From Desulfovibrionaceae bacterium (GTDB lineage: Bacteria; Desulfobacterota; Desulfovibrionia; Desulfovibrionales; Desulfovibrionaceae): a stretch of 64,000 nucleotides of DNA. The stretch spans positions 62,001 to 126,000 of the forward strand of contig JACCQO010000001.1 in NCBI GenBank assembly GCA_015709205.1, in the 5' to 3' direction. Made by a program: the position numbers and the translations under genes. Shown one piece after another: positions 1,715 to 22,667 of the stretch; within the stretch, counting starts at the first letter, position 1; each line of letters opens with the position of its first letter. The notes beneath the pieces were generated by a model. The model made no database searches and was not told the origin of the DNA. It saw only the letters and a program-made list of their open reading frames with translations.

Positions 1715-2035
1715 TCAATCGTGGGGATGATCGTGCCCGTCCCCGCCCTCGTGGGCGTGGGCCGCGTCGGTGCTGTGCGCGCCGTGGCCGTGGGTGTGCT
1801 CGTGGGAGTGTTCGGCCTCGTGGGTGTGGATGTGATCGTGGCCGTGGGTGTGCCCGTGCTCGTGCACGTGGCAGTGCTCGTGGGTGTGCGTGGTGCCGTC
1901 GGCGTGGGTGTGCTCGTGCACATGGCTGTGCTCGTGCTCGTGGGTGTGCTCGTGGGCCTGGTCGGTAACGTGCCCATGGGCGTGGCTGTGCTCGCGCCGC
2001 TCGCCGCCGGTCCCGCATCCGCAATTCTTGCACAT
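1715..2035 (-). CDS. Histidine-rich HypB-N-terminus-like metal-binding protein
   Basis: The protein has 106 residues. It begins MCKNCGCG, like the N-terminal nickel site of the hydrogenase/urease GTPase HypB. The rest is almost entirely repeats of the His-Glu/Thr/Ser-His type (HEH, HTH, HSH) with several Asp residues. No GTPase domain follows, so this is either a detached HypB metal-storage segment or an independent nickel/zinc chelator. It is cytoplasmic by appearance, with no signal peptide. It stands alone between two signalling genes, with its own terminator. The family link rests on the N-terminal motif and composition. The biased composition makes database similarity unreliable. Confidence 0.7.
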   Translation of the reverse strand: MCKNCGCGTGGERREHSHAHGHVTDQAHEHTHEHEHSHVHEHTHADGTTHTHEHCHVHEHGHTHGHDHIHTHEAEHSHEHTHGHGAHSTDAAHAHEGGDGHDHPHD

Positions 2036-2231: not shown

Positions 2232-6164
<3,933 letters not shown>

Positions 6165-6767
6165 CCACGACCCTTCCGGAAAATATGAGCGAACCCTGAA
6201 AAGGGCCGCCTGCCACAGGCGGTCCTTGAAAAGTGGCGAAGCGCACGGCCCAGCCGGACGAAGCGACACCTCTTTTTTGCTCAACCGTACTGCAAGAAGC
6301 GAATTCTGGCTACAGGAACAAGGGGTTTGTCTTTATCATGCCGCCTCCCCGTCAGGCGGACGACGGACGGCGCGGCGGCGGAAAGAGGTCTGGCGGCGAA
6401 GGGAGCCGCAAAGGGCAAGGAAGGCGCAACGTCAAAAGAACGCGCGACGGCAAAGACCTCGTGCAGGCCAAAAGAGGCGGCCGCGAGACGCGCGGCGGGG
6501 AACCGAGATGCCCCCCCGCTGCGCTGCCGGATCAACGGCGATCAGCGCCGCGAGGAGGGCCGGAGGGACAGGCAGTGGGAACGCCCCCGCGCGCAACGGC
6601 ACGGGGTGGGAAAACAGGGTCGGCGGGGGACGCGCTGCCGAGGACGCGTCCCCCGCCGACGACGGGGTGTTGCGGGTGTCAACCCGCTCTACGGGGAGTG
6701 TGGACCGGCGGCGGGACGGGGGAACGATGGTTCCCGTTATCGCGCCCCCTGCCGCGCCGCAGTGCGC
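6165..6767. other. Intergenic, about 600 bp
   Basis: No coding pattern was found on either strand. It separates the kinase promoter region from the end of the isethionate minus-strand operon, and contains the strong hairpin at 6619-6660. Confidence 0.5.
6619..6660 (-). terminator. Hairpin terminator at end of islAB-amidohydrolase transcript
   Basis: Perfect 16-bp arms (GTCGGCGGGGGACGCG and its complement) enclose a 10-nt loop. On the minus strand the stem is followed by ACCCTGTTTTCCC. The T-run is short, so termination may be partial. It is about 110 bp past the amidohydrolase stop. Confidence 0.6.
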
Positions 6768-7739
6768 CTACCCATCCAGGCGCACAAGCACTTCGCGCAC
6801 GATGTCGTTGACCAGGTCGCGCACCGAGCCATCGGCCGCGCCGACCACGGAGGCGGAGGCGGAGGCGGCGGCGCCCGCCGAGGCGGAGGCGGAGGCGCCG
6901 GCCGCCGGGGCCAGGCCGAGCAGCCCGGCCGCGTTCTCGTACATGATCTTGCGCCGGACCTCGGGCTTGAGCGGCAGGGACTCGTAGGTCTTGAGCGCGT
7001 CCGTGAACGGCACGAACGGGTGCGCGCTGGCGTAGAGGATCTTGTCCGGAATCATGGTGTTGGCCGCCTGCACGTAGGCCTCGGCCATGGGCGAGAACTC
7101 GTACTCGGAAAGATCGATGAACACGTTGCGGTTGCGCTGGGCCACGGTGATGGCCTCGTTGACCCAGGGATAGCCGCCGTGGCTGATGATGATCTTCAGC
7201 TCCGGGAAGTCGCGGGCCACGATGTCGATGTAGCGCGGAGCCACGTGGTCGATGATCGCGTTGGGCACCAGGGTCGCCGGGCCCGTGGTGAAGACGATGG
7301 GCACGTCCAACTCGCAGCACTTGGAATAGATCGGATAGTACTTGGCGTCGTTGGCGTAGAGCTGCGCCAGGTAGGGATCCACGGCCGCACCGTGCATGCC
7401 CAGGTCGCAGACCGAGGCCTTGAGCTCGGCGATGGCGCCCATGCCCTTGTGCGGATCCAGGCCGATGAAGCCCCGAAACTTGTTCGGAAACTTCTTCACG
7501 AACTCGATCACGCTGTCGTTGTTGGACTTGGAGCCGTAGGTGGTCTCGCAGTCGCGGCCCGTGATCACGGCCAGGACCACATTGTGGCGGTCCAGGTCGG
7601 CCACGACCTCTTCCACGGTCTGCGGCTTCATCCGGGAGAAGTCGATGTGCTGGCACAGCCCCTTGAACATCTTGCTGTTCTGGATGCCGGTCAGGGTCGC
7701 GGCCGTGTTCGGCCGGAAACGGAAATCGATGACGTTCAT
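6768..7739 (-). CDS. Amidohydrolase-2 fold protein with C-terminal microcompartment-targeting peptide
   Basis: The protein has 323 residues. Residues 1-275 form a PF04909-type TIM barrel (VIDFRFRP, ITGRDCETTYG, GLDPHKGMGAI, ISHGGYPWVNEA, KILYASAHPF). An Ala/Ser linker (about 278-302) leads to an amphipathic helix VRDLVNDIVREVLVRL at the very C-terminus. Linker plus helix is the usual layout of a BMC encapsulation peptide, and it resembles the N-terminal helix of the aldehyde dehydrogenase at 21231. The usual metal ligands appear lost: the HxH motif after the first strand reads RFR, and the Asp of the last strand is absent in SAHP. The gene is last in the islA-islB transcript. The cargo role is well supported by the tail. 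The reaction is unknown. Confidence 0.82.
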   Translation of the reverse strand: MNVIDFRFRPNTAATLTGIQNSKMFKGLCQHIDFSRMKPQTVEEVVADLDRHNVVLAVITGRDCETTYGSKSNNDSVIEFVKKFPNKFRGFIGLDPHKGMGAIAELKASVCDLGMHGAAVDPYLAQLYANDAKYYPIYSKCCELDVPIVFTTGPATLVPNAIIDHVAPRYIDIVARDFPELKIIISHGGYPWVNEAITVAQRNRNVFIDLSEYEFSPMAEAYVQAANTMIPDKILYASAHPFVPFTDALKTYESLPLKPEVRRKIMYENAAGLLGLAPAAGASASASAGAAASASASVVGAADGSVRDLVNDIVREVLVRLDG

Positions 7740-7797
7740 GTGGGAACTCCCCTTGTTGTTCCCGCCCGCGGCCCCGATGTCCGCCGGGCGGTCCGTT

Positions 7798-8739
7798 CTA
7801 GTTCGCGGCCTGGCAGCACTCCGCCCTGGCCTTGGCCACGGCGCGCAGTTCCTCGATGCGGCCCTCGGGCAGGTTGCCGACCCCCTCCAGGGGGTAGGTC
7901 CGGCCGATGTATCCGTATTTCGGCGTGCCCATGCGGTGGTACGCCAGCAGTTCGTACGTGGCCCCGGGCAGGGTGCACACGAAGTCGGCGATGGCCCCGA
8001 TGGACGCCTCGTCGTCGTTGACGCCGGGGATGACCGGCGTGCGCACGGTGATGGCCAGGCCCGGATAGGCCTCGCGCAGCTTGCGCAGGTTCTCCAGGAT
8101 GCGCTCGTTGCCCGTGCCCGTAACCCGGGCGTGGCGCGCGGAATCCGCGCTCTTGACGTCGTAGAACACGCTGTCGAGATAGCGGCCCGCTTCCTTGAGC
8201 ACCTCCCAGGGCACGTTGCCGCAGGTCTCGATGCAGGTGTTTATGCGCCGCTTGCGCGCCTCGCGCAGCAGGGCCAGGGCGAACTCGGACTGGTAGAGCG
8301 GCTCGCCGCCGCTCAGGGTCAGGCCGCCGCCGGAGCGCGAGTAGAAGATGTCGTCCTCCTCCACGCGGGCGAGGGCCTGCTCCACGGAAACCTCGTAGCC
8401 GTAGACGTTCAGGGCGTCGGCCGGACAGGCCTCGGCACACTGCAGACAGTTGTCGCACCGGGTGAAGTCCACGACGACCTTGCGGTCCTCGCCCACGGAG
8501 ATGGCCTTGTGCGGACACACGTCCAGACAGCGCTTGCACGCGTCCACGCCGAGACACTTCTGCGGGTTGTAGGCCAGCTGCCGATGCAGGGCCTGGGACT
8601 CGGGATTGCTGCACCAGTCGCAACGCAGGCTGCAGCCCTTGAGAAAGATGATCGTGCGGATGCCGGGCCCGTCGTGCACCGAGTACTTCTGGATGTTGAA
8701 GACGAGGCCCTTTTGTTTCGTATCCGGCAGAGTGGGCAA
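7798..8739 (-). CDS. islB: Glycyl-radical enzyme activase (radical SAM) for IslA
   Basis: The protein has 313 residues. It installs the glycyl radical on IslA using S-adenosylmethionine and a [4Fe-4S] cluster. The radical-SAM CxxxCxxC motif appears as CSLRCDWC. An inserted ferredoxin-like region carries two further clusters (CLGVDACKRCLDVCP and CDNCLQCAEACP), typical of PFL-type activases. SGGEP follows. I prefer the TTG start at 8739, because AAGGA sits 7 nt upstream. An in-frame ATG at 8832 would give 344 residues, but it has no ribosome site and falls inside a hairpin. Its position directly after islA fixes the partner. The name rests on pairing with IslA, since activases are alike across GRE families. 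Confidence 0.9.
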   Translation of the reverse strand: MPTLPDTKQKGLVFNIQKYSVHDGPGIRTIIFLKGCSLRCDWCSNPESQALHRQLAYNPQKCLGVDACKRCLDVCPHKAISVGEDRKVVVDFTRCDNCLQCAEACPADALNVYGYEVSVEQALARVEEDDIFYSRSGGGLTLSGGEPLYQSEFALALLREARKRRINTCIETCGNVPWEVLKEAGRYLDSVFYDVKSADSARHARVTGTGNERILENLRKLREAYPGLAITVRTPVIPGVNDDEASIGAIADFVCTLPGATYELLAYHRMGTPKYGYIGRTYPLEGVGNLPEGRIEELRAVAKARAECCQAAN

Positions 8740-8813
8740 GGTTTTTTCCTTGTGCAGTCGGTTGCGGGTATCGAACGCGCCCGCCGCAACGGCCGGGCGC
8801 GGCCGGAACGCCT

Positions 8814-8850
8814 GCGGCGCGGCGGGGGCCATCGGGCCCCCGCGCGCCGC
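8814..8850 (-). promoter_or_regulatory. Intercistronic hairpin between islA and islB
   Basis: A GC stem of about 16 bp with one bulged base, starting 10 bp past the islA stop. No T-run follows. It probably stabilises islA mRNA 3' ends or partially terminates, which would give much more lyase than activase. Confidence 0.55.
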
Positions 8851-8859
8851 CTGCGGTCG

Positions 8860-11346
8860 CTACATGGTATCGTGTCCGGTGCGGGCGATCAGGTCGTCCT
8901 GCAGATCCTTGGACAGGTCGCAGAAGTAGGCGCTGTACCCGGCGATGCGCACGATCAGGTTCCGGTACTTGTCCGGCTCGCGCTGGGCGGCGAGCAGGGT
9001 TTCCTTGTTGATGATGTTGAACTGGATGTGCCAAAGCTTGAGGTCGCACCAGGTCTTGATGAAGGAAACCAGCTTGGCCGTGCCCTCGTCGCCCTCCACG
9101 CAATGCGGGGTGAACTTGACGTTGAGCAGGCGCGCGGCGCGCTCGCGGTAGTCGTAGTTCTTGGAGGCGTAATTGGAGAGCAGGATGGCCGTGGGGCCGT
9201 TGATGTCCGCACCGTGCGAGGCCGAGGAGCCGTCGGAAAGCGCGGTCCAGGCGAGGCGGCCGTTGGGCGTGGCGCTGACCACGCGGCCGAAGGGCACATG
9301 CGAGGTGAAGGGCACGTAGCGCAGGTCCAGGTGCACGCCGAGTTCCTGGGAGTACTTCTTGGTGAACTCCAGGGAGGCCTTGTCGATGGCGTGTGCGATG
9401 GTGTCCGGATAGGAATCGTTGTTGCCGTAGCACGGGGAGTTGCGCAGCAGGGCCCGCAGGTCCTCCTTGCCCTCGAAGTTGGTGCGCAGGGCCTCGATCA
9501 GCTCGCCCATGCCGACCTTCTTCTCCTCGAAGACCAGCTTTTTGATGGCCGCCAGGGAGTCGATGACCGTGCCGTAGCCGATGCACTCGAAGTAGCCCAG
9601 GTTGATGCCGCCCTCGATCTGCGGGGTGTGGATGTCCACGCAGTTCTTCATGCACAGGTCGTGCATGGCGCTGCCCATGGGCATGGCGAAGTGCTCGGCG
9701 CGCAGGCGGATGATGTTGTGCTGCTGGATGAAGGCGTGCTTGATGAAGTTGAGCTGCTGGGCCAGGTAGGCGTTCCAGAACTGCTCCCAGTCGGTGAACT
9801 TCATCGGGTCGCCGGTCTCCAGGCCGATGAGCTCGTCACCGTACTTGAGCATGCGGCCGTTGTAGAGGGCCATTTCCAGGGCCGCGGCGTAGTTGATGTA
9901 GGCGCAGCAGCTCGTGTAGGTGTCGCGGTTGGGCATGCGGATCTCGGCGCAGCCGGACACGGCGTAGTCGTTGATCTCCTCGAAGGTCGCGCCCTTGGAC
10001 AGGTGCAGCGGGATGATCTCTTCGTCGTTGATCAGCTTGGGGAACCCGGAGCCTTCCTTGATGGTCTCGGCCACTTCCCACAGGTAGCGCTTGGGGGCGC
10101 GGGCGTGGATGCGCGCGGCCAGGTCGGGGTAGTGCAGCGGGAACTCGCGCTTGGAGCGCAGCAGCAGATAGGTCAGGTCGTTGGTGGCGTCGCGGCCGTC
10201 GCGGGTCTGGCCGCCCACGGTCACGGCCTCCCAGTGCGCGTAGCCCTCGTTGAAGGCGCCGCCGGTCGGGGAGATGTAGAGGTCGATGAACTGGGCCATG
10301 CCCACCCACATGCATTCGAACAACTCGATGGCCTCGTCCTCGGTGAGCACGCCGGCCTCGATGTCCGCCTTGTAGAAGGGGTACATGTACTGGTCCATGC
10401 GGCCGTTGGAGATGATCGTGCCGGTCTTCTGCTCGATGCGCGAGAACATCTGCACGAACCACTGGGACTGCATGGCCTCGTAGAAGTTGCGGGCCGGATT
10501 CTCCGGCACCCAGGCGCAGGTCTCGGCGATGCGCGCGAGCTCCTGCTTGCGCACGGGGTCGGTCTCCTTGGCGGCCATCTCGGCGGCCAGGGCGGCGTGG
10601 CGGTTGGCCCAGATGGTCACGGCGTCGCAGACGGTGACCACGGCCTCCAGGAAGGGACGCTTCTCGCAATTGCCCACCGGGCTATACGGATCGAGGGCGG
10701 CCAGCTTCTCCTGGGCCTCTTCCTTCAGGCCCTTGAAGCCGCGCTTGAGGACCTTCTCGAAATCCAGGACCCACTGCAGGGACGAGCGGAACGAGGCGGT
10801 CTCGTTGACGATGAAGCGGGAGAGCAGGACGTTGTCCGGATAGTAGGTCAGCTTGAGGGTGTCCTCGGGCAGGGCCACGGCGAGGTCCTCGTGAAAGGTC
10901 TTGCCCTTCCAGTAGGGAGCGATCTCCTCCATGATGACCTTGGCGTCCGAGGGGTCGATCACGAACGGGGAGACCTCGCGCTTGTCCAGCTCCTGGATGG
11001 CCAGATCGAGGAAGTCGCCGTCCAGCTCGGGATAGAGGATGCCGTAGCGGCCCTGGCTGCCGGCGCGGCCGACCAGGAGCTGGTCGTCGTCGATGTAGAC
11101 GGAGATCTTCTCGGCCACGTTCTTCATGGCCTTGGCCCAGCGCAGCACCAGGGCCTGCCCCTCGGTCTGGCGCATGGACTCGGTGAAGTATTTGCCGCGC
11201 TCCACGTCCACCTTGGGCGTGAGGGTCTGCACGCGGTCGAGGATCTTGAAGGCGCGCACGTGCCCGGCTTCCGAGCGGTGTTTGTTCTCGCGACCTTCAA
11301 TCTGGTTCTGTAGCATTTGTTCTTGCGGAGACAAGCAACAGGACAT
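8860..11346 (-). CDS. islA: Isethionate sulfite-lyase, glycyl radical enzyme
   Basis: The protein has 828 residues. It cleaves the C-S bond of isethionate (2-hydroxyethanesulfonate) to acetaldehyde and sulfite. The glycyl-radical loop RIAGYSAYF has Gly803, and the thiyl-radical site is Cys466 with Glu468 in SGCAE. As I recall them, the substrate residues of Bilophila IslA are R189, Q193, W374, C468, E470, R678, F682 and G805. At a constant offset of -2, all eight are present here: R187, Q191, W372, C466, E468, R676, F680 and G803. This argues against choline lyase or diol dehydratase. No encapsulation peptide is evident. A -24/-12 promoter lies 60 bp upstream, and a TRAP transporter operon precedes it. 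Acetaldehyde is presumably passed to the BMC. Confidence 0.95.
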
Positions 11347-11405
11347 GGTAACTCTCCTTGAAAGGTGAAGTATGTAGAAGTGACGCAGTATCTATTCCTG
11401 ATAGA

Positions 11406-11420
11406 GCAAATTCAGTGCCA
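11406..11420 (-). promoter_or_regulatory. Sigma-54 (-24/-12) promoter of islAB
   Basis: The minus strand reads TGGCACTGAATTTGC. This matches TGGCAC-N5-TTGC with exact GG-N10-GC spacing. Transcription would start near 11394, giving a leader of about 48 nt to the islA ATG. Confidence 0.85.
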
Positions 11421-11611
11421 GTAATGCGGACCCGTCGTCATTTTCTCGGTTCGTCCGGTAGTCGTTGAAACATTTGCTCTTTCTTCCTTCCCAACCGTTC
11501 CGATCGGGAATCGTTTTCAGGCCGAGAGCTGCGTCCTCCTTCCTTTTGCGTTGCAGTTTTTCAACACTGCACTTTATCCAGCCGAAAAAACTGGTAAACT
11601 TTTCAGGTACA

Positions 11612-11658
11612 CTTGCCACGCCCGGCCGCCCGTGTTGCAATTTCGCCACGGGCGGCCG
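11612..11658. promoter_or_regulatory. Stem-loop after dctM with candidate activator half-sites
   Basis: Perfect 12-bp arms (CGGCCGCCCGTG at 11623-11634 and its complement at 11647-11658) enclose TTGCAATTTCGC. Together with the neighbouring CTTGCCACG this gives two elements like the GTGGCAA/TTGCCAC motif upstream of dctP. It lies 190-240 bp upstream of the islA -24/-12 promoter, a usual enhancer distance. It could act as terminator, enhancer site, or both. Confidence 0.45.
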
Positions 11659-11671
11659 CATTGCGCCACGG

Positions 11672-12991
11672 CTAGTGATTGAGCACCTTCGGCAGCCAGG
11701 TGACCAGGGCCGGGAAGAGCATGATCATGGCGATGCCGAAGGCCTGGCAGCCGATGTACTGGATCATGCCGCGGTAGATGTCCGAAAGGTGCCACTTGGG
11801 GATGCAGCCCTTGATGAAGTAGCAGGACAGGGCCACCGGCGGGGACAGCCAGGACGTCTGCAGGGTCACGGCGTAGACGATGGCGAACCAGAGCAGGTCC
11901 ACGCCCATGGCCTTCACCGTGGGGAGCATGATCGGCAGGATGATGAGCACGATGGGCACCCACTCCATGGCCCAGCCGAGCAGGAACACGAAGACCATGA
12001 TCAGGGAGATCATGAGCATGGGCGGCAGGTTCATGCCGATCAGGGCGTTGGAGAGCCAGGCCGCGCCGCCGAGGCGGGAGAAGACCGAACCGAAGAAGTT
12101 GGAGGCCGCGATCATGATCAGGATCATGGCCGAGAGCTTCACGCTGTCGTACATGGCCTTCTTCAGGTTGGCCACCTTGAAGCGGCGGTAGGCGATGACC
12201 AGCACGAGGGCGCCGAAGGCGCCGCAGGCCGAGGCCTCGGTGGGCGTGGCCAGGCCGGCCAGAATGGAGCCCAGGGTCGCGCCGATGAGCAGGATCAGGG
12301 GCACCACGCCCTTGGCCAGGTCGATCATCAGGCCGGAGAAGGAATCGGCGCGCAGTTCCTTGGGCATCGGCGGACCGAGGCGCGGGTTGATCAGGCAGCG
12401 GATCAGCGAATAGGCGCAGTAGATGCCCGAGAGCAGCAGGCCGGGGATGACGGCGCCGGCAAAGAGGTCCGTCACCGGCACGCCCATGAGCGGACCCATG
12501 ACCACGAGCATGATGCTCGGCGGGATGAGGATGCCCAGGGTGCCGCCTGCCGCGATGGCGCCCGCGCCCATGCGGATGTCGTAGTTGGAGCGGCGCATGG
12601 CGGGCTCGGCCATGACGCACAGGAGCGTGATGGAGGAGCCGACGATGCCCGTGGCCGCGGCGAAGATGGTCCCGGTGAGCACGATGGCCACGTAGAGCGA
12701 GCCGGGGATCGGGGCCATGAGTTTCTGGAAGGAATGGAAAAGTTCGTCCATGAGCCCCGCGCTCTCCAGGATGTAGCCCATGAAGAGGAAGAACGGGATG
12801 GCCCCGAGGACCGGGTCGCTCATGACCTGATAGAACTGGATGTTCATCAGGTGGAAGACGAGGTTGCCGATGCCCATGTACCCGAAGGCCAGCCCGATGA
12901 ACATCATCGTGAAGGCGATGGGGAAGCCCGAACAGAAGGCGATGAGCAGACCGAAAAGGGAGAGGATCCCGAGCAATTCATTGGCGGACAT
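11672..12991 (-). CDS. dctM: TRAP transporter large membrane subunit, isethionate uptake candidate
   Basis: The protein has 439 residues. It is a hydrophobic 12-helix permease of the DctM family and catalyses Na+-driven uptake together with DctQ and the periplasmic DctP. DctM hallmarks are FPIAFTMMFIGLAFG near the N-terminus, FLFMGYI, and the conserved IPPSIMLVVMGPLMGVPV loop (about 160-180). It follows dctQ closely in the dctP-dctQ-dctM order and precedes islA, so isethionate is the likely substrate. That assignment is by context; the permease sequence does not show it. Confidence 0.88.
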   Translation of the reverse strand: MSANELLGILSLFGLLIAFCSGFPIAFTMMFIGLAFGYMGIGNLVFHLMNIQFYQVMSDPVLGAIPFFLFMGYILESAGLMDELFHSFQKLMAPIPGSLYVAIVLTGTIFAAATGIVGSSITLLCVMAEPAMRRSNYDIRMGAGAIAAGGTLGILIPPSIMLVVMGPLMGVPVTDLFAGAVIPGLLLSGIYCAYSLIRCLINPRLGPPMPKELRADSFSGLMIDLAKGVVPLILLIGATLGSILAGLATPTEASACGAFGALVLVIAYRRFKVANLKKAMYDSVKLSAMILIMIAASNFFGSVFSRLGGAAWLSNALIGMNLPPMLMISLIMVFVFLLGWAMEWVPIVLIILPIMLPTVKAMGVDLLWFAIVYAVTLQTSWLSPPVALSCYFIKGCIPKWHLSDIYRGMIQYIGCQAFGIAMIMLFPALVTWLPKVLNH

Positions 12992-13003
12992 ACGTGGCTC
13001 CCC

Positions 13004-13624
13004 CTATTTCGTTTCGAAATCCGAGCAGACGCCGGAGTCTTTGCTGGTGTCGTGGGCGGCTTCGGCGGCCCAGTAGAATTCGCCGTGGCGCCAGGCATAG
13101 TAGCTCTTGATGGTCTCGCTGAGGCCCTGCGCGATCATCAGCGCCAGGCTCACGGGAATGGCCATCTTCATGGGCCAGATGATGGGCATCCAGGGGCTGG
13201 AGATGATCGACTCGTTCTGCTGGAAGGACTTGAAGAAATAGTCCCAGCCCACCTTGAGGAACACGACGTGGGTGGGGAGGTACAGAAAAACGTAGACGAT
13301 CAGGTCGGCGAGCCCCTTGGCCTTGGTGGACCAGTGCGCGTACAGGAAGTCGGTGCGGATGTGCATGCCTTCCCGCAGGCAGAACGGGGATGCGATCATG
13401 AAATATATTCCGTACATGATAAGAGCGAGATCCCCCGCCCATATCGTCGGGGCATTGAAGAAGTAGCGAGCGATAACTTCGTGCACAAGCACATACATCA
13501 TGGGGATGATGAGATAGGAAACAGCCTTGCCGCTGAACCCGCTCAGCCTATCCAGAAAGGCGACGATATCTTTTACTCGCCGAGATGGTCCTCTTTTTTC
13601 GTTCAATCCTTGTGTTTGCACTCC
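13004..13624 (-). CDS. dctQ: TRAP transporter small membrane subunit
   Basis: The protein is about 206 residues, with four predicted membrane helices. It is the DctQ partner that joins the binding protein and the large permease. EVIARYFFNAPTIWAGDLA and the GMHIRTDF segment are typical of DctQ. I prefer GTG at 13624, with GAGGA upstream. An in-frame ATG at 13690 would add 22 residues, but it is read from within the strong hairpin after dctP. The C-terminal tail after the last helix is longer than usual and soluble. Confidence 0.8.
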   Translation of the reverse strand, partial: GVQTQGLNEKRGPSRRVKDIVAFLDRLSGFSGKAVSYLIIPMMYVLVHEVIARYFFNAPTIWAGDLALIMYGIYFMIASPFCLREGMHIRTDFLYAHWSTKAKGLADLIVYVFLYLPTHVVFLKVGWDYFFKSFQQNESIISSPWMPIIWPMKMAIPVSLALMIAQGLSETIKSYYAWRHGEFYWAAEAAHDTSKDSGVCSDFETK

Positions 13625-13657
13625 ACTATCCTCGCTGTTGGTGCTTTCTGCAGCGAA

Positions 13658-13688
13658 GAGGCTGCGGACGCAGCGCGTCCGCAGCCTC
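13658..13688 (-). promoter_or_regulatory. Hairpin between dctP and dctQ
   Basis: Perfect 14-bp arms (GAGGCTGCGGACGC) with a 3-nt loop, starting about 15 bp after the dctP stop and lacking a T-run. Such hairpins in TRAP operons commonly protect the dctP message, so that the binding protein is made in excess over the membrane subunits. Confidence 0.55.
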
Positions 13689-13702
13689 AAAGCGACATCT
13701 TC

Positions 13703-14812
13703 CTACTTGTAATCCTTCATCATACCGGTATCCAGGGCCGTCTTGGCCATCTTGTAGTAAAGACCGGAGACCTTTTCCTCGTAAGGAACGGTCATCTTGG
13801 CCCAGTCTTCGAGGGAGTTCAGGACCTGCTTGAAGAAGGCGTTCTTATCTGCGTACTTCTGGAGAATCTTGGGCGTGGCGGCCATGTATTCCGTGAAGTA
13901 CTCCTGCGGGGTGTCGTGCAGCTTGACGTTCTTCTCGAGCACCAGCTTGCGCAGGGCGGCGCTGTTGATGCTCACGTTCATGTTGATCTGGTTGGCGACG
14001 CAGGCCTTCATGGCCACTTCGACGACGGCCTGAAGGTGCTTGGGCAGGGAGTCGTACCAGGTCTTGTTGATGTAGACGTCGCCGATGGACAGGGCCTGGT
14101 GCAGGCCCTGGAGGTAGTAGTGCTTCCACACGTCGGCCAGGCCCAGGAACAGGTCGTCGCCGGGGCTGATCCACTCGGCCGCGTCGATGACGCCGCGCTG
14201 GGCGGAGGGCACGATCTCGCTACCCGGCATGGACACGACGGGCATGCCGATGGCCTTGAAGGTTTCCGCCGGGATGCCCGGAGGGGAGCGGAACTTCATG
14301 GCCTTGAGGTCGTTCATGTTATTGAATTCCTTTGGGAACCATCCGAACGGCTCAGGTCCCATGGGGATGCACAGCCAAGCCTTGATGTCGTACTTCAGTT
14401 CCTTCTGATAGTACTGGTTCAGGAGCTTGCCGCCGTCGCCTTCCCAGGCCCAGGACAGCAGCCCGGCCTGGTCCAGGCCCACGCCGAGGCCCGCGGTGGG
14501 CGCGGCGAAGAGCAGACCGGCCGGGTGCTTGCCGGACCAGTAGTGCGTCCAGGCCATGCCGCCGTTGACGATGCCTTCGCTCACGGCGTCGAGAATCTCG
14601 AAGGCCTTCACGATCGCGCCGTCGGGATAAATCTCGACGGAGATCTCACCGTTGGAGAGATCCTGGATGTCTTTGCCCAGGCGCTCCATGGTCTGAAAGT
14701 ACATGCTCGAGTTGGGGACGGCCGTCTGGATCTTGAGTTCGTACTTGGCGGCCCATGAGGGCACGGCCATACCAAGCACAAGAACCAACGTGAGGGCAAT
14801 ACTTCTCAACAT
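13703..14812 (-). CDS. dctP: TRAP transporter periplasmic binding protein, isethionate candidate
   Basis: The protein has 369 residues, starting at 14812 with AGGAG upstream. A Sec signal peptide (MLRSIALTLVLVLGMAVPSWA, cleaved near residue 22) leads into a DctP-fold solute receptor. LKIQTAVPNSSMYF, a KFRSPPG segment where family members usually carry the substrate-binding Arg, and the VIDAAEWISPGDD stretch mark the family. It is the first gene of the minus-strand operon, behind a sigma-54 promoter. It lies in a dctPQM-islAB arrangement like that of Desulfovibrio isethionate loci. The ligand is inferred from neighbours. Confidence 0.88.
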   Translation of the reverse strand: MLRSIALTLVLVLGMAVPSWAAKYELKIQTAVPNSSMYFQTMERLGKDIQDLSNGEISVEIYPDGAIVKAFEILDAVSEGIVNGGMAWTHYWSGKHPAGLLFAAPTAGLGVGLDQAGLLSWAWEGDGGKLLNQYYQKELKYDIKAWLCIPMGPEPFGWFPKEFNNMNDLKAMKFRSPPGIPAETFKAIGMPVVSMPGSEIVPSAQRGVIDAAEWISPGDDLFLGLADVWKHYYLQGLHQALSIGDVYINKTWYDSLPKHLQAVVEVAMKACVANQINMNVSINSAALRKLVLEKNVKLHDTPQEYFTEYMAATPKILQKYADKNAFFKQVLNSLEDWAKMTVPYEEKVSGLYYKMAKTALDTGMMKDYK

Positions 14813-15041
14813 AACCACTCTCCTCGCTTTGAAGTTGAACAACAACATCCTTCGACAGTGCGATGCGTTTTGGCTCGCGCGTTGGGCTTTTCCCAATCCC
14901 GCCGTGCCTGAAAGCCGTTGTCCCGCACCGGCAGGGGCGAGACCCCGCCGGGTCGGCGGCCTTGTCCAGGATTGAACAAACGGCGGCTTTCAGCCGGACC
15001 GCGTCCCACCCTGTACTGGCTCCAACAATTACAGCAAGAAA

Positions 15042-15451: not shown

Positions 15452-15884
15452 GCCGCCGCACCTCTGCGTCAAAGCCGCCTCAAACCGACCCACCGCAGCA
15501 CCTCTCCCGCCGCGAGAACTTCCACCCTGCCCGACCTGATCTTCGCGCATCCCCCGGCGCCGCCCTCCGCCGCCTTGGTCTTTCCCGGGGGGCGACAATC
15601 CGCTTCCTGCCGCCCTCCCCTCTCGGCGCGCAACGGCAGCCGTGCCGCCGCGCGCCCGCTCCCCGCCGGCTCCGAAAACAAGGCCCGCCGCCGTGCAGCG
15701 ACCGTCTTCGCGCCGCCCGCACCGCGCCGCCGAACCGTCCGGAAAACACGCCGCGCCCGCAAACCGGCCACCCCCTTTGCACGATAGTTGCAACCGCCCG
15801 ACCCGACCAGCGGACCGCTTTCGAACGGCCGCGACCGGGATGTCGGTTTTCGGCATTGCATTTCTACATGCCGCAGGAGGAATC

Positions 15885-16682
15885 ATGGCAAAACGCATCA
15901 TCGCGGAGTCCGACATAATAAAGGTGTCGGAGGAGGGCGGCAGGTCCATCGCCGCCCCTGCGAAGGAATGCCTCGTCACTCCCAAGGCGCGGGACAAGGC
16001 CGCGGAACTGGGGGTGACCATCGTGGGCGACCCGGGGGCCGAGCCCCCGGCGCAGGCCGCCGCCGAGGCCCCGGGCCGGGCGTCCGCCACGGTCACGGCC
16101 GCGCCCGTGGCGGCGGTCGCCGCCGCGCGCCGGCCGAGCGGCGCCACGGCCGACGCGGTCATCGGCGAGGTTATCGCGCGGATGCGGCCCCGGCTCTCGG
16201 CCGACGTGCGCCCCGCGCAACTGGCGGACATGGTCCGCGCCGCGCTGAGCGCGCGCATCGCCGGACGCGCCGCCCCGGCGCAGGCGGCCGCCGCTGCCGC
16301 AGTCCCCGCCGCACCCGCCCCCGCCTCGGGAGGAGCCCGCACCACCGTCGAGGGCGTCTGCTTCATCGACAACGCCCGCCTGATGCGCACCGAGGAGGGC
16401 CCCACGCCCGTGCCCGGGAGCGTGATCATGGCCGAGGCCCTGGGCGGGCCCGACGAGACCCGCCTGTCCGGCGGCTACATGCAGTGGGAAAAGGCCTCGT
16501 TCAGCCGCACCGTGGAGTGCGCCGAGGTCTGCGTGGTCGTGGACGGCAAACTGCACCTGACCGTGGGCGGCGAAACGCTCATCGGCAGCCCCGGGGACAT
16601 GATCTACCTGCCCGAGGGCGCGCACGTGCTCTACAGCGCGCCGGACAAGGTGCGGCTGGCCTGCGTGAACTGCGTGGCCTGA
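15885..16682 (+). CDS. EutQ-like cupin protein of the microcompartment
   Basis: The protein has 265 residues; the start at 15885 has AGGAGG upstream. The N-terminus ([13 protein letters not shown], then a [15 protein letters not shown] segment) resembles EutQ, and the C-terminal 110 residues form a cupin barrel ([26 protein letters not shown]). EutQ proteins are reported to make acetate and ATP from acetyl-phosphate. No separate acetate kinase is seen in this window, so EutQ may supply ATP here. The middle (about 65-155) is Ala/Pro-rich linker around helical segments, one of which ([18 protein letters not shown]) looks like an internal encapsulation peptide. It is the first gene of the plus-strand run. 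Confidence 0.75.
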
Positions 16683-16711
16683 ACGGAAATCCTCAGCATC
16701 CGGACAAGCAC

Positions 16712-17769: not shown

Positions 17770-18051
17770 ATGACCATGGATGCATTGGGCATGATCGAAA
17801 CCAGGGGCCTGACGGCGTTGATCGAAGCCGCTGACGCGATGGTCAAGGCCGCGCGCGTGCAGTTGGTCGGCTACCAGCAGATCGGCGCGGGCTACGTGAC
17901 CGCCCTGGTGCGCGGCGACGTGGCCGCGTGCAAGGCCGCCACCGACGCAGGCGCCGCCGCTGCCCAGCGCGTGGGCGAGGTCATCGCCGTGCACGTGATT
18001 CCGCGGCCCCACGGGGATCTGGAAGAAGTCTTCCCGATCAAGCGCAAGTAG
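17770..18051 (+). CDS. Hexameric microcompartment shell protein BMC-H (PduA/EutM-like)
   Basis: The protein has 93 residues and one BMC domain ([49 protein letters not shown]). It forms the flat hexamers of the shell facet. The loop around [12 protein letters not shown] should line the central pore. It is very similar to the third BMC-H at 20535 and probably arose by duplication. A ribosome site AGGAG sits just before the ATG. Confidence 0.95.
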
Positions 18052-18084
18052 CGCGGCAGCAACCCTCAACATCCTGAAGGCGGC

Positions 18085-19440
18085 ATGGACAAGGAAGCCC
18101 TGATCCAAGCGATACGCGACGCGGGCGTCGTGGGCCAAGGCGGGGCCGGTTTTCCGGCCCACGTCAAGTACGACGTCGGCGTGGAGACGGTCATCGCCAA
18201 CGGCTGCGAGTGCGAGCCGCTGCTGCACACCGACCAGCACGTCATGCGCACCGAGGCGCGGGAGATCGTCCGCGCCCTGCGGGAGGTCGTCACGGCCACC
18301 GGCGCGGCGCGCGGCGTGGTGGGCATCAAGCGCAAGTACGCGGCCGTGGCCGAGGCCTTCACCCAGGCCTTTGCCGAACCCGGGCCCGGGAGCGGCGTTC
18401 CCCTGGAGTTGTTCCAGATGGACAACTTCTATCCGGCCGGCGACGAACAGATCCTGGTGCACGAGGTCACGGGCCGCACCATCCCGCCCCTGGGACTGCC
18501 CAAGGACGTGGGCGCGCTGGTGGCCAACGTCGGCACCCTGTACGCGGTGAGCCGGGCCATGGACGGCGAGCCCGTGACGCACAAGCTGCTCACGGTCACG
18601 GGCGAGGTCGCCCGGCCCGCGATCCTGCGCGTGCCCATCGGCACGACCATCGCCGAGTGCGTGGCCCACTGCGGCGGCGCCACGGTGGAAGATCCGGTCT
18701 TCCTGCTCGGCGGGCCGATGATGGGCCGCTTCGCGGACACCCCGGAGGCCATGGCCTCCACCCTGGTGACCAAGACCAGCGGCGGGGTCATCGTCCTGGA
18801 GCGGGGCCACCACCTGCACCGCAGCGCCACGCTGCCGGTGCGCGAGATGCAGCGCCGCGCCGCCGTGGCCTGCATCCAGTGCCGCGCCTGCACGGACCTG
18901 TGCCCCCGGCATCTCATCGGGCACGGGTTCGAGACCCACAAGGTCATGCGGGCCTTCGGCGGCGGAACGGACGCGGCCATGGGCGCGCTGCAGGCCTGGA
19001 TGTGCTGCGAATGCGGCGTGTGCGAGCTGTTCAGCTGTCCCATGAGCCTGTCGCCCCGGCGCATCAACGCCCTGCTCAAGCAGGAATTCCGGCGCGCCGG
19101 CGCGCAGTACTCGGGCCCCAGGGAGGTGCTCCCCGCCCAGGCGGACCTGCGCCCCTTCCGCAAGATCCCGGTGCCGCGCCTGGCCCACCGGCTGGACATC
19201 GACCGCTACATGGACATCCATCCCGAGTTCCAGGGCGACTACGCCCCCGGAAGCGTGCGCATCCCCCTGCAGCAACACATCGGGGCCCCGGCGGTCGCGA
19301 CCGTCAAGGCGGGGGATGCGGTGAAGGCGGGTGCGCGCATCGGCGCGATTCCCGAGGGCAAGCTCGGCGCGGCCGTGCACGCCTCGATCTCCGGCACGGT
19401 GGCCGAGGTCGATGACTGCATAACCATCAAAGGAGATTGA
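18085..19440 (+). CDS. PduS/RnfC-like flavo-iron-sulfur oxidoreductase
   Basis: The protein has 451 residues. The N-terminus has the RnfC/NuoF-type nucleotide and FMN site (GVVGQGGAGFPAHVK and IANGCECEPLLHTD), followed by an SLBB-like domain. Two [4Fe-4S] motifs follow (CIQCRACTDLCP and CCECGVCELFSCP, about 270-320). A C-terminal barrel-sandwich domain (VKAGDAVKAG...) completes the PduS layout. PduS is a BMC-bound electron-transfer protein that pairs with the Fe-S shell protein PduT, whose likely homolog is the next gene. Here it could pass electrons from NADH made by the aldehyde dehydrogenase across the shell. No B12 enzyme is present, so a cobalamin-reductase role is unlikely. Confidence 0.85.
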   Translation: MDKEALIQAIRDAGVVGQGGAGFPAHVKYDVGVETVIANGCECEPLLHTDQHVMRTEAREIVRALREVVTATGAARGVVGIKRKYAAVAEAFTQAFAEPGPGSGVPLELFQMDNFYPAGDEQILVHEVTGRTIPPLGLPKDVGALVANVGTLYAVSRAMDGEPVTHKLLTVTGEVARPAILRVPIGTTIAECVAHCGGATVEDPVFLLGGPMMGRFADTPEAMASTLVTKTSGGVIVLERGHHLHRSATLPVREMQRRAAVACIQCRACTDLCPRHLIGHGFETHKVMRAFGGGTDAAMGALQAWMCCECGVCELFSCPMSLSPRRINALLKQEFRRAGAQYSGPREVLPAQADLRPFRKIPVPRLAHRLDIDRYMDIHPEFQGDYAPGSVRIPLQQHIGAPAVATVKAGDAVKAGARIGAIPEGKLGAAVHASISGTVAEVDDCITIKGD

Positions 19441-19442
19441 GG

Positions 19443-20000
19443 GTGGAAGCCAGACTCCAGGCACTGGGCATGATCGAGTGCAACAGCATCGCATCCGGCA
19501 TCGAGGCGGCGGACTTCATGATCAAGGCCGCCCTGGTGGAGCCGCTGATGCTCAAGACGATCTGTCCGGGCAAGTTCGTGGTCGCCGTGTACGGCGAGGT
19601 GGCTTCGGTGCGCTCCTCCCTGGACGCGGGCCTGGCTTCGGCCGGTGCGTCCGTGGTGGACCACTTCCTCATCCCCAACATCAGCCATCCGGTGATCTCG
19701 GCCATGGCCTGCGCCCTGGCCGAACCGCATGGGACGGCCGTGGGCGTGGTGGAGACCTTCTCCGCGGCCGCGACCATCGAGGCCGCTGATGCGGCGGTCA
19801 AGGCCGCCAACGTGGAGCTGATCGAAGTGCGCATCGCCATGGGCCTGGGGGGCAAGGGCTTCAGCCTGCTCTGCGGCGACGTGGCCGGCGTGCAGACCGC
19901 CGTGGACGCGGGAGCGGCCACGGCCATGGAAAAGGGCCTTCTGGTGCGCAAGGTGGTCATTCCCAGCATGGCCCCGCAGGTGCTGCGCCATCTGATGTAA
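19443..20000 (+). CDS. Tandem-domain shell protein BMC-T, PduT-like with candidate Fe-S cysteine
   Basis: The protein has 185 residues and two BMC domains in tandem (about 5-90 and 95-180), forming pseudohexameric trimers. In domain 1 a Cys at position 41 lies in KTICPGKF, the place where PduT carries the Cys that holds a [4Fe-4S] cluster on the trimer axis. The start is GTG at 19443, which has AGGAG 7 nt upstream; an in-frame TTG six bases earlier is too close to that site. It directly follows the PduS-like gene, as expected for an electron-conducting shell patch. Confidence 0.88.
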   Translation: MEARLQALGMIECNSIASGIEAADFMIKAALVEPLMLKTICPGKFVVAVYGEVASVRSSLDAGLASAGASVVDHFLIPNISHPVISAMACALAEPHGTAVGVVETFSAAATIEAADAAVKAANVELIEVRIAMGLGGKGFSLLCGDVAGVQTAVDAGAATAMEKGLLVRKVVIPSMAPQVLRHLM

Positions 20001-20076
20001 CCGCCCCCGGGCCGGGAGGCGACCAACGCAGCGGCGCGGCCCTTTCGCAAGCGCGCGCCGCCAGGGACGGGACGTA

Positions 20077-20478
20077 ATGGCATACGATCAATCCTTCGGT
20101 TTTGTGGAGACGGTGGGCCTGGTGGCGGCCATCGAGGCCGCCGACGCCATGGTCAAGACCGCGCGCGTGCGCGTGAAGACCGTGGCCAACGCGGACGCGG
20201 CGCTGATCAGCGTGATCTGCGAGGGCGACCTGGCCTCGTGCCGCGCGGCCGTGGACGCGGGCAAGGCCGCGGCGGCCCGCGTGGGCGACCTGGCCGGGGA
20301 CAATCTCATCGCCCGGCCCGACGACGACACCAACTACGTGGTCGCGGAGCTGATCGGCTCCCTGCGGCCGAAGGCGGCCACGCCGCCCACGGCCGCGCCC
20401 GAAAAGGTCGCGCCCGAAAAAGCCGCGACGGCCAAGCCGACGGCGGCCAAGCCCGCCGGGCGCGGCAAGAAGAAGTAG
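20077..20478 (+). CDS. BMC-H shell protein with basic Ala/Pro/Lys-rich tail
   Basis: The protein has 133 residues. Residues 1-95 form a BMC domain ([47 protein letters not shown]). A disordered tail of about 35 residues follows, rich in Ala, Pro and Lys and ending GRGKKK. The usual pore-loop motif is replaced by [12 protein letters not shown]. The tail may bind cargo, nucleic acid or cytoskeleton, as suggested for PduK/PduV-type partners. This is inference from composition only. Confidence 0.88.
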
Positions 20479-20534
20479 CCCGCCACGGCGATCCCGGATT
20501 TCCGGACAACAACGAATCAATGAGGAGTCTGATC

Positions 20535-20822
20535 ATGGATGACGCTCTCGGAATGGTGGAAACCAAGGGATTGACCGGTCTGATCGAGGCCGCCGACGCC
20601 ATGAGCAAGGCGGCGCGCGTGAAGGTCGTGGGCTACCAGCGCATCGGCGCGGGCCTGGTCACCGTGCTCGTGCGCGGCGACGTGGCGGCCTGCAAGGCGG
20701 CCACCGACGCCGGGGCCGCCGCGGCCCAGCGCGTGGGCGAGCTGCTGACCTCGCACGTGATCCCCCGGCCGCACCTGGACCTGGAAAACGTATTTCCCAT
20801 CGCGCTCAAGCAGGAAATCTAG
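20535..20822 (+). CDS. Hexameric microcompartment shell protein BMC-H (PduA/EutM-like)
   Basis: The protein has 95 residues and is a close paralog of the shell protein at 17770: [36 protein letters not shown] and [11 protein letters not shown] differ at few positions. The pore-loop residue changes from Gln to Arg (YQRIGAG), which should make this pore more positive and could favour an anion such as isethionate or acetyl-phosphate. The ATG at 20535 has TGAGGAG upstream. Confidence 0.94.
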
Positions 20823-20918
20823 GCGGGGCGCGCCCCTCCTCCGCCCGGCATGGGGCCGGCCGGAAATTCAAGGACCCGCGTTTCGGCCGGGTCGAGGACG
20901 CCGCAGCAGGAGAAGACA

Positions 20919-21203
20919 ATGGAACTGGGCAAGGTCGTTGGACAGGTGGTGGCCACCGTACGGGACGCCGGACTGCCGAACCTGAAGTTCCTCCTGGTCG
21001 ACATCATCGACCCCCGGGGGAAGGTCATGGCGTGCGGCCAGGTGGCCGTGGACACCATCGGCGCGGGCGAGGGCGAGATCGTCCTCCTGGTTCGCGGCAG
21101 TTCGGCGCGGCTGGTCCGGGACAACACGACACCCATGGATTTGAGCGTGGTCGGCATCGTGGACCAGATCACCTCGGGCCGCAGCGCGGTCTACTCCAAG
21201 TAA
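20919..21203 (+). CDS. Pentameric shell vertex protein BMC-P (EutN/CcmL family)
   Basis: The protein has 94 residues. MELGKVVGQVVATVRDAGLPNLKFLLVDIIDP, the central DTIGAGEGEIVLLVRGSSAR and the final VGIVDQI are diagnostic of the EutN/CcmL family. These pentamers cap the vertices of the polyhedral shell. It is the only pentamer gene in the window. The ATG at 20919 has an AGGAGA ribosome site. It lies between the last BMC-H and the aldehyde dehydrogenase. Confidence 0.95.
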   Translation: MELGKVVGQVVATVRDAGLPNLKFLLVDIIDPRGKVMACGQVAVDTIGAGEGEIVLLVRGSSARLVRDNTTPMDLSVVGIVDQITSGRSAVYSK

Positions 21204-21230: not shown

Positions 21231-22667
21231 ATGTCCATTCGACAGGAAGACATTGAATCTATCGTGAACGAGGTCTTGAGCAAGCTGGGCGGCTCCGGCG
21301 AGGTCATCCGCGCCGCCGCCGGAGCGGCGGACGGCGCGGGCGGCGACCACGGCGTGTTCGAACGCCTCGAGGACGCCGTGGCCGCGGCCCAGAGGGCCCA
21401 CAAGGCCATCCCCACCGTGGCCATCCGCGAGAAGGTCATCCGCGTGATCCGCCGCGCCGCGCGCGCCAATGCCCGCCGCCTGGCCGAAATGGCCGTGGAG
21501 GAGACCGGCATGGGCCGCATCGAGGACAAGATCCGCAAGAACATGCTCGTGGCCACGCGCACGCCCGGCCCCGAGGTCCTCACGCCCGCGGCCATCAGCG
21601 GCGACACCGGCCTGACCCTGATCGAGAACGCGCCCTGGGGCGTCATCGCCTCGGTCACGCCCTCCACCAACCCGGCCGCCACGGTCATCAACAACGCCAT
21701 CAGCATGATTTCCGGCGGCAACGCCGTGGTCTTCGCCCCGCATCCCAGCGCCAAGCGCACCACCCAGGAGGCCATCCGCATCCTGAACCGGGCCCTGGAG
21801 GAGGAGGCCGGCGTGGCCAACCTGCTGGTCTGTGTGCGCGAGCCGAGCATCGAGGTGGCCCAGAAGCTCTTCACCTTCCCGGGCATCAACCTGCTCGTGG
21901 TCACGGGCGGCGAGGCCGTGGTCGAGGCGGCGCGCAAGGTCACGGACAAGCGGCTCATCGCCGCGGGCGCGGGCAACCCGCCCGTGGTCGTGGACGAGAC
22001 CGCGGACCTGGCGCGCGCGGCCAAGAGCATCTACGACGGCGCGTCCTTCGACAACAACATCATCTGCGCCGACGAGAAGGAAATCATCGCCGTGGACGCC
22101 ATCGCCGACCAGCTCAAGGCCGAGATGAAGGCCTGCGGCGCGGTGGAGATCACCCCGGACCAGGCCGAGACCCTGGCCCGCGCCGTGCTCCTGGACTACC
22201 CGGGCCCCAAGCGCCGCCCCAACCCCAAGTGGGTGGGCCGCGACGCCCGCGAGCTGGCGCGCGCCGCCGGGTTCGACGTGCCCGAGTCCTGCCGCCTGCT
22301 GCTCGTGGACGTGGGCCGCGACGTCGACCACGTCTTCGCGCGCGTGGAACAGATGATGCCCATCCTGCCCGTGCTGCGCGCCAACGACTTCCGGGAGGCC
22401 CTGGACTGGGCCATGCTCCTGGAGCGCGGCCTGTCGCACACCGCGGGCCTGCATTCGCGCAACATCGAGAACATGGACGCCATGGCCAGGCGCATGAACA
22501 CGAGCCTGTTCGTGAAGAACGGCCCGCACGTGGCCGGTCTGGGCGCGGGCGGCGAAGGCTGGACCTCCATGACCATCTCCACCCCCACCGGCGAAGGCGT
22601 GACCAACGCGCGCAGCTTCGTGCGCCTGCGCCGCTGCACCCTGGTGGGCAGCTTCAGGATCGTCTAG
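21231..22667 (+). CDS. CoA-acylating acetaldehyde dehydrogenase (PduP/EutE-like), BMC cargo
   Basis: The protein has 478 residues. It oxidises acetaldehyde to acetyl-CoA with NAD+. The N-terminal amphipathic helix EDIESIVNEVLSKLGG (about 6-21), followed by a Gly/Ala linker, is a classic encapsulation peptide. The ALDH core includes PWGVIASVTPSTNP, VVTGGEAVVEAA, AAGAGNPPVVVD and catalytic Cys279 in FDNNIICADEKE, all PduP/EutE hallmarks. In this locus it consumes the acetaldehyde released by IslA, keeping the toxic aldehyde inside the shell. Its NADH must be recycled, which may explain the PduS and Flx-Hdr genes nearby. Confidence 0.94.
   Translation: MSIRQEDIESIVNEVLSKLGGSGEVIRAAAGAADGAGGDHGVFERLEDAVAAAQRAHKAIPTVAIREKVIRVIRRAARANARRLAEMAVEETGMGRIEDKIRKNMLVATRTPGPEVLTPAAISGDTGLTLIENAPWGVIASVTPSTNPAATVINNAISMISGGNAVVFAPHPSAKRTTQEAIRILNRALEEEAGVANLLVCVREPSIEVAQKLFTFPGINLLVVTGGEAVVEAARKVTDKRLIAAGAGNPPVVVDETADLARAAKSIYDGASFDNNIICADEKEIIAVDAIADQLKAEMKACGAVEITPDQAETLARAVLLDYPGPKRRPNPKWVGRDARELARAAGFDVPESCRLLLVDVGRDVDHVFARVEQMMPILPVLRANDFREALDWAMLLERGLSHTAGLHSRNIENMDAMARRMNTSLFVKNGPHVAGLGAGGEGWTSMTISTPTGEGVTNARSFVRLRRCTLVGSFRIV

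Follow-up and report, generated by a model that had tools for sequence, protein, structure and literature searches.

An amidohydrolase-fold protein without the metal ligands of its family: a near-certain companion of desulfonation by glycyl radical enzymes

An amidohydrolase-fold protein with two arginines in an RxR motif (the RxR-type amidohydrolase-2 protein, AH) is almost certainly a conserved companion of desulfonation by glycyl radical enzymes (GREs). It is encoded in the window, i.e. the whole stretch of 64,000 nucleotides that was analysed, close to a GRE of the isethionate lyase (IslA) type and to microcompartment shell genes, and its sequence makes it very likely that AH is microcompartment cargo at this locus. 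Of the 110 sampled genomes of the order with AH or the GRE, 101 had both, and AH carries a targeting-type tail beside shell genes; hence, AH is probably part of a working desulfonation pathway.

AH starts 58 bases past the ORF of the GRE activase, and the activase as called starts 27 bases past the GRE. A run of genes on the + strand spans about 15.6 to 23.5 kb and includes a EutJ-like protein (EutJ was read from sequence). The features of the locus are:

6768..7739, - strand: RxR-type amidohydrolase-2 protein (AH), ORF of 323 amino acids with a PF04909 match
7798..8832, - strand: glycyl radical enzyme activase (radical SAM; NF048010 461.9 bits, cut-off 430); the true start is possibly inside the ORF
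8860..11346, - strand: C-S-lyase-type glycyl radical enzyme, IslA type (PF02901 and PF01228)
11672..14896, - strand: TRAP transporter of three genes, upstream of the GRE on the same strand
11672-12991, - strand: TRAP large permease (TIGR00786 below its cut-off)
13004-13690, - strand: TRAP small permease, called by position (no NCBIfam match)
13703-14896, - strand: DctP (NF037995)
15642-16682, + strand: ORF of a EutQ-like protein (PF06249)
about 16660-17713, + strand: phosphotransacetylase (PTA)-like protein, read from sequence without a profile scan
17770..21203, + strand: shell and electron-transfer block (basis PF00936, PF03319 and PF01512), with the following six genes
17770-18051, + strand: BMC-H
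18085-19440, + strand: PduS/RnfC-like protein
19437-20000, + strand: BMC-T
20077-20478, + strand: second BMC-H
ending at 20822, + strand: third BMC-H, read from sequence without a profile scan
20850-21203, + strand: BMC-P
21231..22667, + strand: CoA-acylating-type aldehyde dehydrogenase (ALDH; NF011927 644.6 bits, cut-off 403) with N-terminal peptide QEDIESIVNEVLSKLGG

The locus had earlier been taken for an isethionate microcompartment, and the GRE bears this out. It is 73% identical to IslA of Desulfovibrio vulgaris (5ymr), 67% to IslA of Bilophila wadsworthia (7kq3) and 63% to 6lon. Its residues R189, L192, Q193, W374, C468, E470, R678, V680, F682 and G805 (Bilophila numbering) equal those of IslA at nine of the ten active-site positions compared, Leu replacing I192; the residue list was taken from the consulted part of PMC8473560. 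Furthermore, the window holds the gene set of isethionate microcompartments, with an acylating ALDH, PTA (by sequence), EutQ, a PduS-like protein and shell genes. Since the ALDH is of the acylating type, acetaldehyde, and hence isethionate, is the better guess for the pathway. The NCBIfam name 'DHPS dehydratase' was dropped as a guide to the window GRE. On the model concerned (NF048011, the 'HpsG' model) the window GRE scored 1562.6 bits, the proven isethionate lyase of D. vulgaris 1558.8 and 6lon 1509.3, so that the model cannot separate isethionate lyases from HpsG, and automatic annotation with it would label isethionate lyases as DHPS dehydratases. Elsewhere in the window (1715-2035, - strand) lies a His-rich ORF of 106 amino acids with many HEH/HTH repeats that looks like a metal-binding protein.

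AH matched PF04909 with 132.7 bits (cut-off 26.4) in a Pfam profile scan, in agreement with the amidohydrolase fold claimed by the earlier note, while an NCBIfam profile scan of AH gave no match. Thirteen orthologs were 52-86% identical over the core. Profile and sequence searches placed AH in the family of the PF04909 metal enzymes, such as gamma-resorcylate decarboxylase and 5-carboxyvanillate decarboxylase. These use a His and an Asp as metal ligands, whereas AH has Thr and Ala at the two positions and lacks the N-terminal HxH. The residues concerned are:

7713..7721, - strand: R7-F8-R9, taken as the counterpart of HxH on motif and position
7287..7289, - strand: Thr151, which replaces the strand-5 metal His (alignments to 3nur, to LigW-type decarboxylases and to paralog L002)
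7179..7181, - strand: His187, the sole canonical active-site His retained (aligned with the His of relatives)
7017..7028, - strand: S238-A239-H240-P241, in which Ala239 replaces the strand-8 metal Asp (alignments)

The proposal, made from RFR and SAHP, that AH has lost the metal ligands typical of its family held up at each of these positions, with strands assigned from the motif alignment. In the alignments Thr151 stood opposite the strand-5 His of 3nur, 5-carboxyvanillate decarboxylase and L002, Ala239 opposite an Asp, and His187 opposite a His. No N-terminal HxH was found in AH, the first His being H31. RFR (residues 7-9) is equated with HxH by its motif (I-D-F-R-F-R versus x-D-x-H-x-H) and its N-terminal location only, no alignment securing the match: the PF04909 match starts at residue 36, no printed alignment to a metal enzyme extends to the RFR, hhalign of AH with its own-genome paralog L002 (DVHTH) did not reach the N-terminus, and MAFFT aligned the two with an offset of two positions, placing R7 opposite Asp and R9 opposite the first His.

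The altered site is strongly conserved. R7, R9, R62, H187, S238, A239 and P241 were invariant in all 98 homologs above 150 bits, and R7, R9, R62 and H187 also in a set of 19 sequences that included distant homologs, where A239 varied (Gly in L049). Within the clade, R7, R9, R62, D95, K98, D121, Y123, H187, E212, E214 and S238 were identical in 88 of 88 members. Such invariance of polar residues argues for a working pocket, and the conserved residues may all line one single pocket. The closest solved relative, the uncharacterised protein BB4693 (PDB 3irs and 3k4w; E 1e-33), has the same RxR and the same Ala for Asp; its alignment stops before any AH tail, and the molecule is named only 'uncharacterized'. 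Together with the invariant residues, the shared pattern of 3irs points to an old branch of the family rather than a decayed gene. Moreover, RxR is present in 3irs and in relatives without a GRE found alongside (L048-L051), which implies that the pocket predates the sulfonate role. As judged from sequence, loss of the metal site is thus a trait of the whole RxR branch, 3irs included, and not of the window locus alone; the earlier view of a change peculiar to a microcompartment protein is not supported. AH might instead be a metal enzyme that uses other ligands, for example Asp95, His97, His187 and Glu212, several His, Asp and Glu residues being invariant or nearly so. However, H31 is the first His of AH, and Thr and Ala occupy two more ligand positions; we regard such an enzyme as quite improbable. 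By comparison, these residues make it reasonably probable that AH is metal-independent and active, either in catalysis or in ligand binding.

At its C-terminus, AH carries a tail of two parts:

6825..6911, - strand: linker of 29 residues, largely Ala/Ser, outside the conserved core
6771..6824, - strand: encapsulation-type peptide VRDLVNDIVREVLVRLDG, like the N-terminal peptide of the ALDH

The first reading of this tail as an Ala/Ser linker followed by an amphipathic targeting helix was upheld in part. The linker is there, and VRDLVNDIVREVLVRLDG resembles the N-terminal peptide QEDIESIVNEVLSKLGG of the co-encoded ALDH, only 1 of 1000 shuffles being equally good. In contrast, the hydrophobic moment of the tail peptide was not significant (3827 of 20000 shuffles were as high) and was dropped as proof of an encapsulation peptide. 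The encapsulation peptides of microcompartment ALDHs likewise combine a short helix-like terminal peptide with a linker, although AH, unlike these enzymes, has no assigned step; an N-terminal peptide of this kind is noted for the type II AldDH of microcompartments in the consulted part of PMC8217296.

The tail was closely linked to shell genes. We compared 98 loci with 95 different core sequences, some loci sharing a genome, and counted a tail from 20 residues upwards and a shell locus from at least two shell genes. All 31 shell loci encoded a tailed AH, versus 9 of the 67 other loci, where 58 were untailed. A whole-genome search for shell genes found them in or just past the fetched stretch for six of the nine tailed exceptions: just past it in L090, L096, L097 and L098 (contigs matched via coordinates), and as a single shell gene within the locus in L095 and L108. 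The other three (L144, L148 and L156) had shell genes on other contigs only. Among 15 untailed control genomes, eight were without any shell gene and seven had some somewhere. A test on independent branches gave 4.1 pairs for the link, 0 against and 2.9 without difference, with a median p of 0.125, which is not significant in a test that is too small.

Several kinds of tail were present, namely an IVREVL-type, a VIKELA-type in Firmicutes, an L162-type and a PLPFxPF-like ending in Bilophila-type loci. When AH tails were compared with the ends of ALDHs in 27 loci, at most 10 of 1000 shuffles were as good in 11 loci and at most 50 of 1000 in 16. The tail of L162, SDIDAIASRIVAELKKVM, is almost identical to the ALDH tail IDIDAIASLIVAELKKAL of the same locus. 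The Bilophila-type relatives L119, L120 and L130 have the PLPFxPF-like tail instead of the helix tail of the window AH, and in five Bilophila-type loci this tail did not resemble the ALDH peptide: between 219 and 953 of 1000 shuffles did equally well. We observed the PLPFxPF-like ending on AH in L117, L119, L120, L125, L130, L144 and L148, and on no other ORF of at least 60 amino acids there. The tail could be a neutral C-terminal extension without targeting function, given that its amphipathicity alone did not exceed that of shuffles and that the branch test was not significant. Its presence in 31 of 31 shell loci against 9 of 67 others, and the resemblance to ALDH peptides in 16 of 27 loci, where at most 50 of 1000 shuffles did as well, speak against this, and we consider a neutral tail very improbable.

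AH and the GRE also occurred together at the level of genomes. In a sample of 298 genomes of the order, including the own genome, 101 had both (AH at E<=1e-50, GRE at E<=1e-230), eight had the GRE only, one had AH only and 188 had neither (Fisher p about 1e-68, with kinship ignored). Similarly, 12 of 59 other relatives in a first sample had AH (E<=1e-60), and the same 12 had a GRE above 1000 bits. Within genomes, at least 104 of the 135 listed AH places had a listed GRE no more than 20 kb away, at a median of 2.8 kb. A scan of a larger collection confirmed 202 AH relatives, and 80 loci were retrieved. Their titles assign these 80 to Desulfobacterota, to Firmicutes, to one bin of Nitrospiraceae and to another labelled just Pseudomonadota. 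DsrA was above its cut-off in the own genome and in 45 of the 49 AH genomes tested, out of 80 fetched; of the exceptions, G322 had a partial match of 87.6 bits, G345 had split matches, and G339 and G346 had none.

Some genomes have the GRE without AH. Three loci with 6lon-like GREs (L189, L190 and L193) had no AH within 9-10 kb and none above 80 bits elsewhere in the genome. In addition, eight genomes of the order sample had a GRE and no AH ortholog, and the loci of seven (all but G296) were read. In G159 the contig ends near the place where AH would lie if the locus were arranged as in G009, and this absence may thus be an assembly gap; in G234 and G285, where AH was not found, the contigs that carry the GRE are 12.8 and 8.5 kb long. 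These cases imply that AH is not strictly required.

The companion GREs are of several types. AH was located near IslA-type GREs and near 6lon-like GREs (L061, L062, L116, L128, L132, L166 and L167), and a form 42-45% identical to AH near a third GRE type (L163, L164, L169-L171 and L174). In many of the loci with IslA-type or 6lon-like GREs that lack shell genes, the adjoining AH is untailed, and the expectation that AH is peculiar to microcompartments is not supported. We take 6lon to be HpsG, the DHPS sulfolyase; the PDB listing offers a family name only. It was ruled out as HpfG: the HpfG-model proteins of L181-L185 were 28-31% identical, and 6lon reached 457.7 bits on the HpfG model, whose cut-off is 1000. 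As an observation apart, L163, L164, L169-L171, L173 and L174 contain a second GRE-like ORF with Tyr or Ser at the position of the catalytic Cys, which adjoins the sulfonate-lyase-like GRE in six of these seven loci and in L163 and L171 has Ser at the position of the radical Gly. These ORFs are reminiscent of the aminoacyl radical enzymes described in the consulted part of PMC11528403.

The absence of the canonical metal ligands and the proximity of AH to the GRE and activase genes in many loci are also consistent with a non-catalytic helper, in which the fold would serve without chemistry as a scaffold, a chaperone or a sulfite-binding buffer for the GRE or its activase. Defunct enzyme copies are reported from other GRE microcompartments in the consulted part of PMC4207490. 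A scaffold, however, seems to require fewer invariant polar residues than the 88 clade members share, and a general GRE helper would be expected beside other GREs as well. The family to which G346 belongs was sampled with 200 genomes, G346 itself having AH and no DsrA match. Five of the 200 had the C-O-cleaving HpfG above its cut-off; all five lacked an AH ortholog (91.8 bits at best), and DsrA exceeded its cut-off in none of them. On this small sample a general GRE accessory was set aside, and the non-catalytic helper seems rather unlikely to us.

Chemistry on another compound has a similarly small chance of being correct. AH would then work like metal-free members of the superfamily, as a metal-independent hydrolase or lyase, on some other side product, for instance one that is carboxylated or acylated, or a lactone. 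The amidohydrolase superfamily includes such catalysis: LigI, the 2-pyrone-4,6-dicarboxylate lactonase, is said to need no metal, with HxH retained. The PF04909 match and the conserved residues fit this reading, and distant RxR relatives adjoin ORFs that resemble flavin oxidoreductases, RidA and transport genes (named from sequence only). From such varied neighbours, the branch probably has several substrates. Yet AH is tied to sulfite-releasing GREs and to sulfite reducers more closely than a generic by-product would explain. One distant RxR relative deserves separate mention. In L052 (about 3430-11893), a GRE (L076) with V at the F682 position is followed by the RxR AH-like protein and then by an ALDH-like ORF, and a TctABC-like transporter precedes them; the names of the transporter and the dehydrogenase come from sequence alone. 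This locus is possibly another sulfonate pathway.

In the part of the open-licence literature that was covered, we found the association of AH with a GRE in print once, unexplained, for Bilophila wadsworthia. Table 1 of PMC8667426 (Burrichter and others) lists HMPREF0179_00649, with 'predicted amidohydrolase function', at the end of the isethionate microcompartment cluster. In the consulted portion of that paper, '00649' appears only in Table 1, is absent from the proteomics passages and is given no function, which matches the earlier statement that AH has no assigned step in the pathway. The cluster resembles the window in combining an amidohydrolase gene with IslA, activase, ALDH, PTA, EutQ, PduS-like and shell genes, a likeness drawn by annotation. 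Peck 2019 (PMC6386719), in the part consulted, names knockouts of the GRE, activase, transporter and regulator for loss of growth of D. alaskensis on isethionate and does not name the AH gene. The word 'amidohydrolase' was absent from the consulted main text of Xing (PMC6453916), Peck (PMC6386719) and Sayavedra (PMC12125255) and from that of the microcompartment catalogue PMC8217296, and the mentions of isethionate or amidohydrolase in the consulted parts of PMC9594981 and PMC10266427 were unrelated to AH.

These findings suggest what AH might do at the GRE. Since AH tracks a sulfite-releasing GRE and has a targeting-type tail beside shell genes, it probably meets its partner or substrate where that reaction takes place. 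Furthermore, IslA and HpsG systems have in common that sulfite arises beside a carbonyl compound, and a cationic pocket without metal suits a sulfonate or sulfite anion, which favours a metal-independent enzyme acting on a sulfite-derived anion. We therefore tentatively propose, with the substrate a matter of inference, that AH is an encapsulated, metal-independent companion of GRE desulfonation that works on such an anion. The tail would place AH where IslA releases sulfite and acetaldehyde. Its pocket would bind anions and hold no metal, whose place Arg7, Arg9, Arg62 and Lys98 would take, and AH would act on a sulfite-derived anion formed at the reaction site of IslA. A first guess at the substrate is a carbonyl-bisulfite adduct, namely 1-hydroxyethanesulfonate from acetaldehyde, or the hydroxyacetone adduct in HpsG systems; splitting by AH would provide free substrates for the ALDH and the sulfite reductase. 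That the adduct is indeed the substrate is doubtful. It is less likely still that AH represents an offshoot of the amidohydrolase fold that relies on arginines instead of a metal and cleaves carbonyl-bisulfite adducts (an alpha-hydroxysulfonate lyase), and that gain or loss of a peptide tail has taken it into and out of microcompartments together with its partner radical enzyme. We know of no enzyme family with alpha-hydroxysulfonate lyase activity.

By desulfonating isethionate and DHPS, the oxygen-sensitive GREs supply the formation of hydrogen sulfide in bacteria that respire sulfite, some of them gut species, and AH hints at a step or helper in this pathway that has been overlooked. If AH does handle sulfite-carbonyl adducts, this would explain how both toxic products stay available in a closed space, and it would add metal-free chemistry to a large enzyme family.
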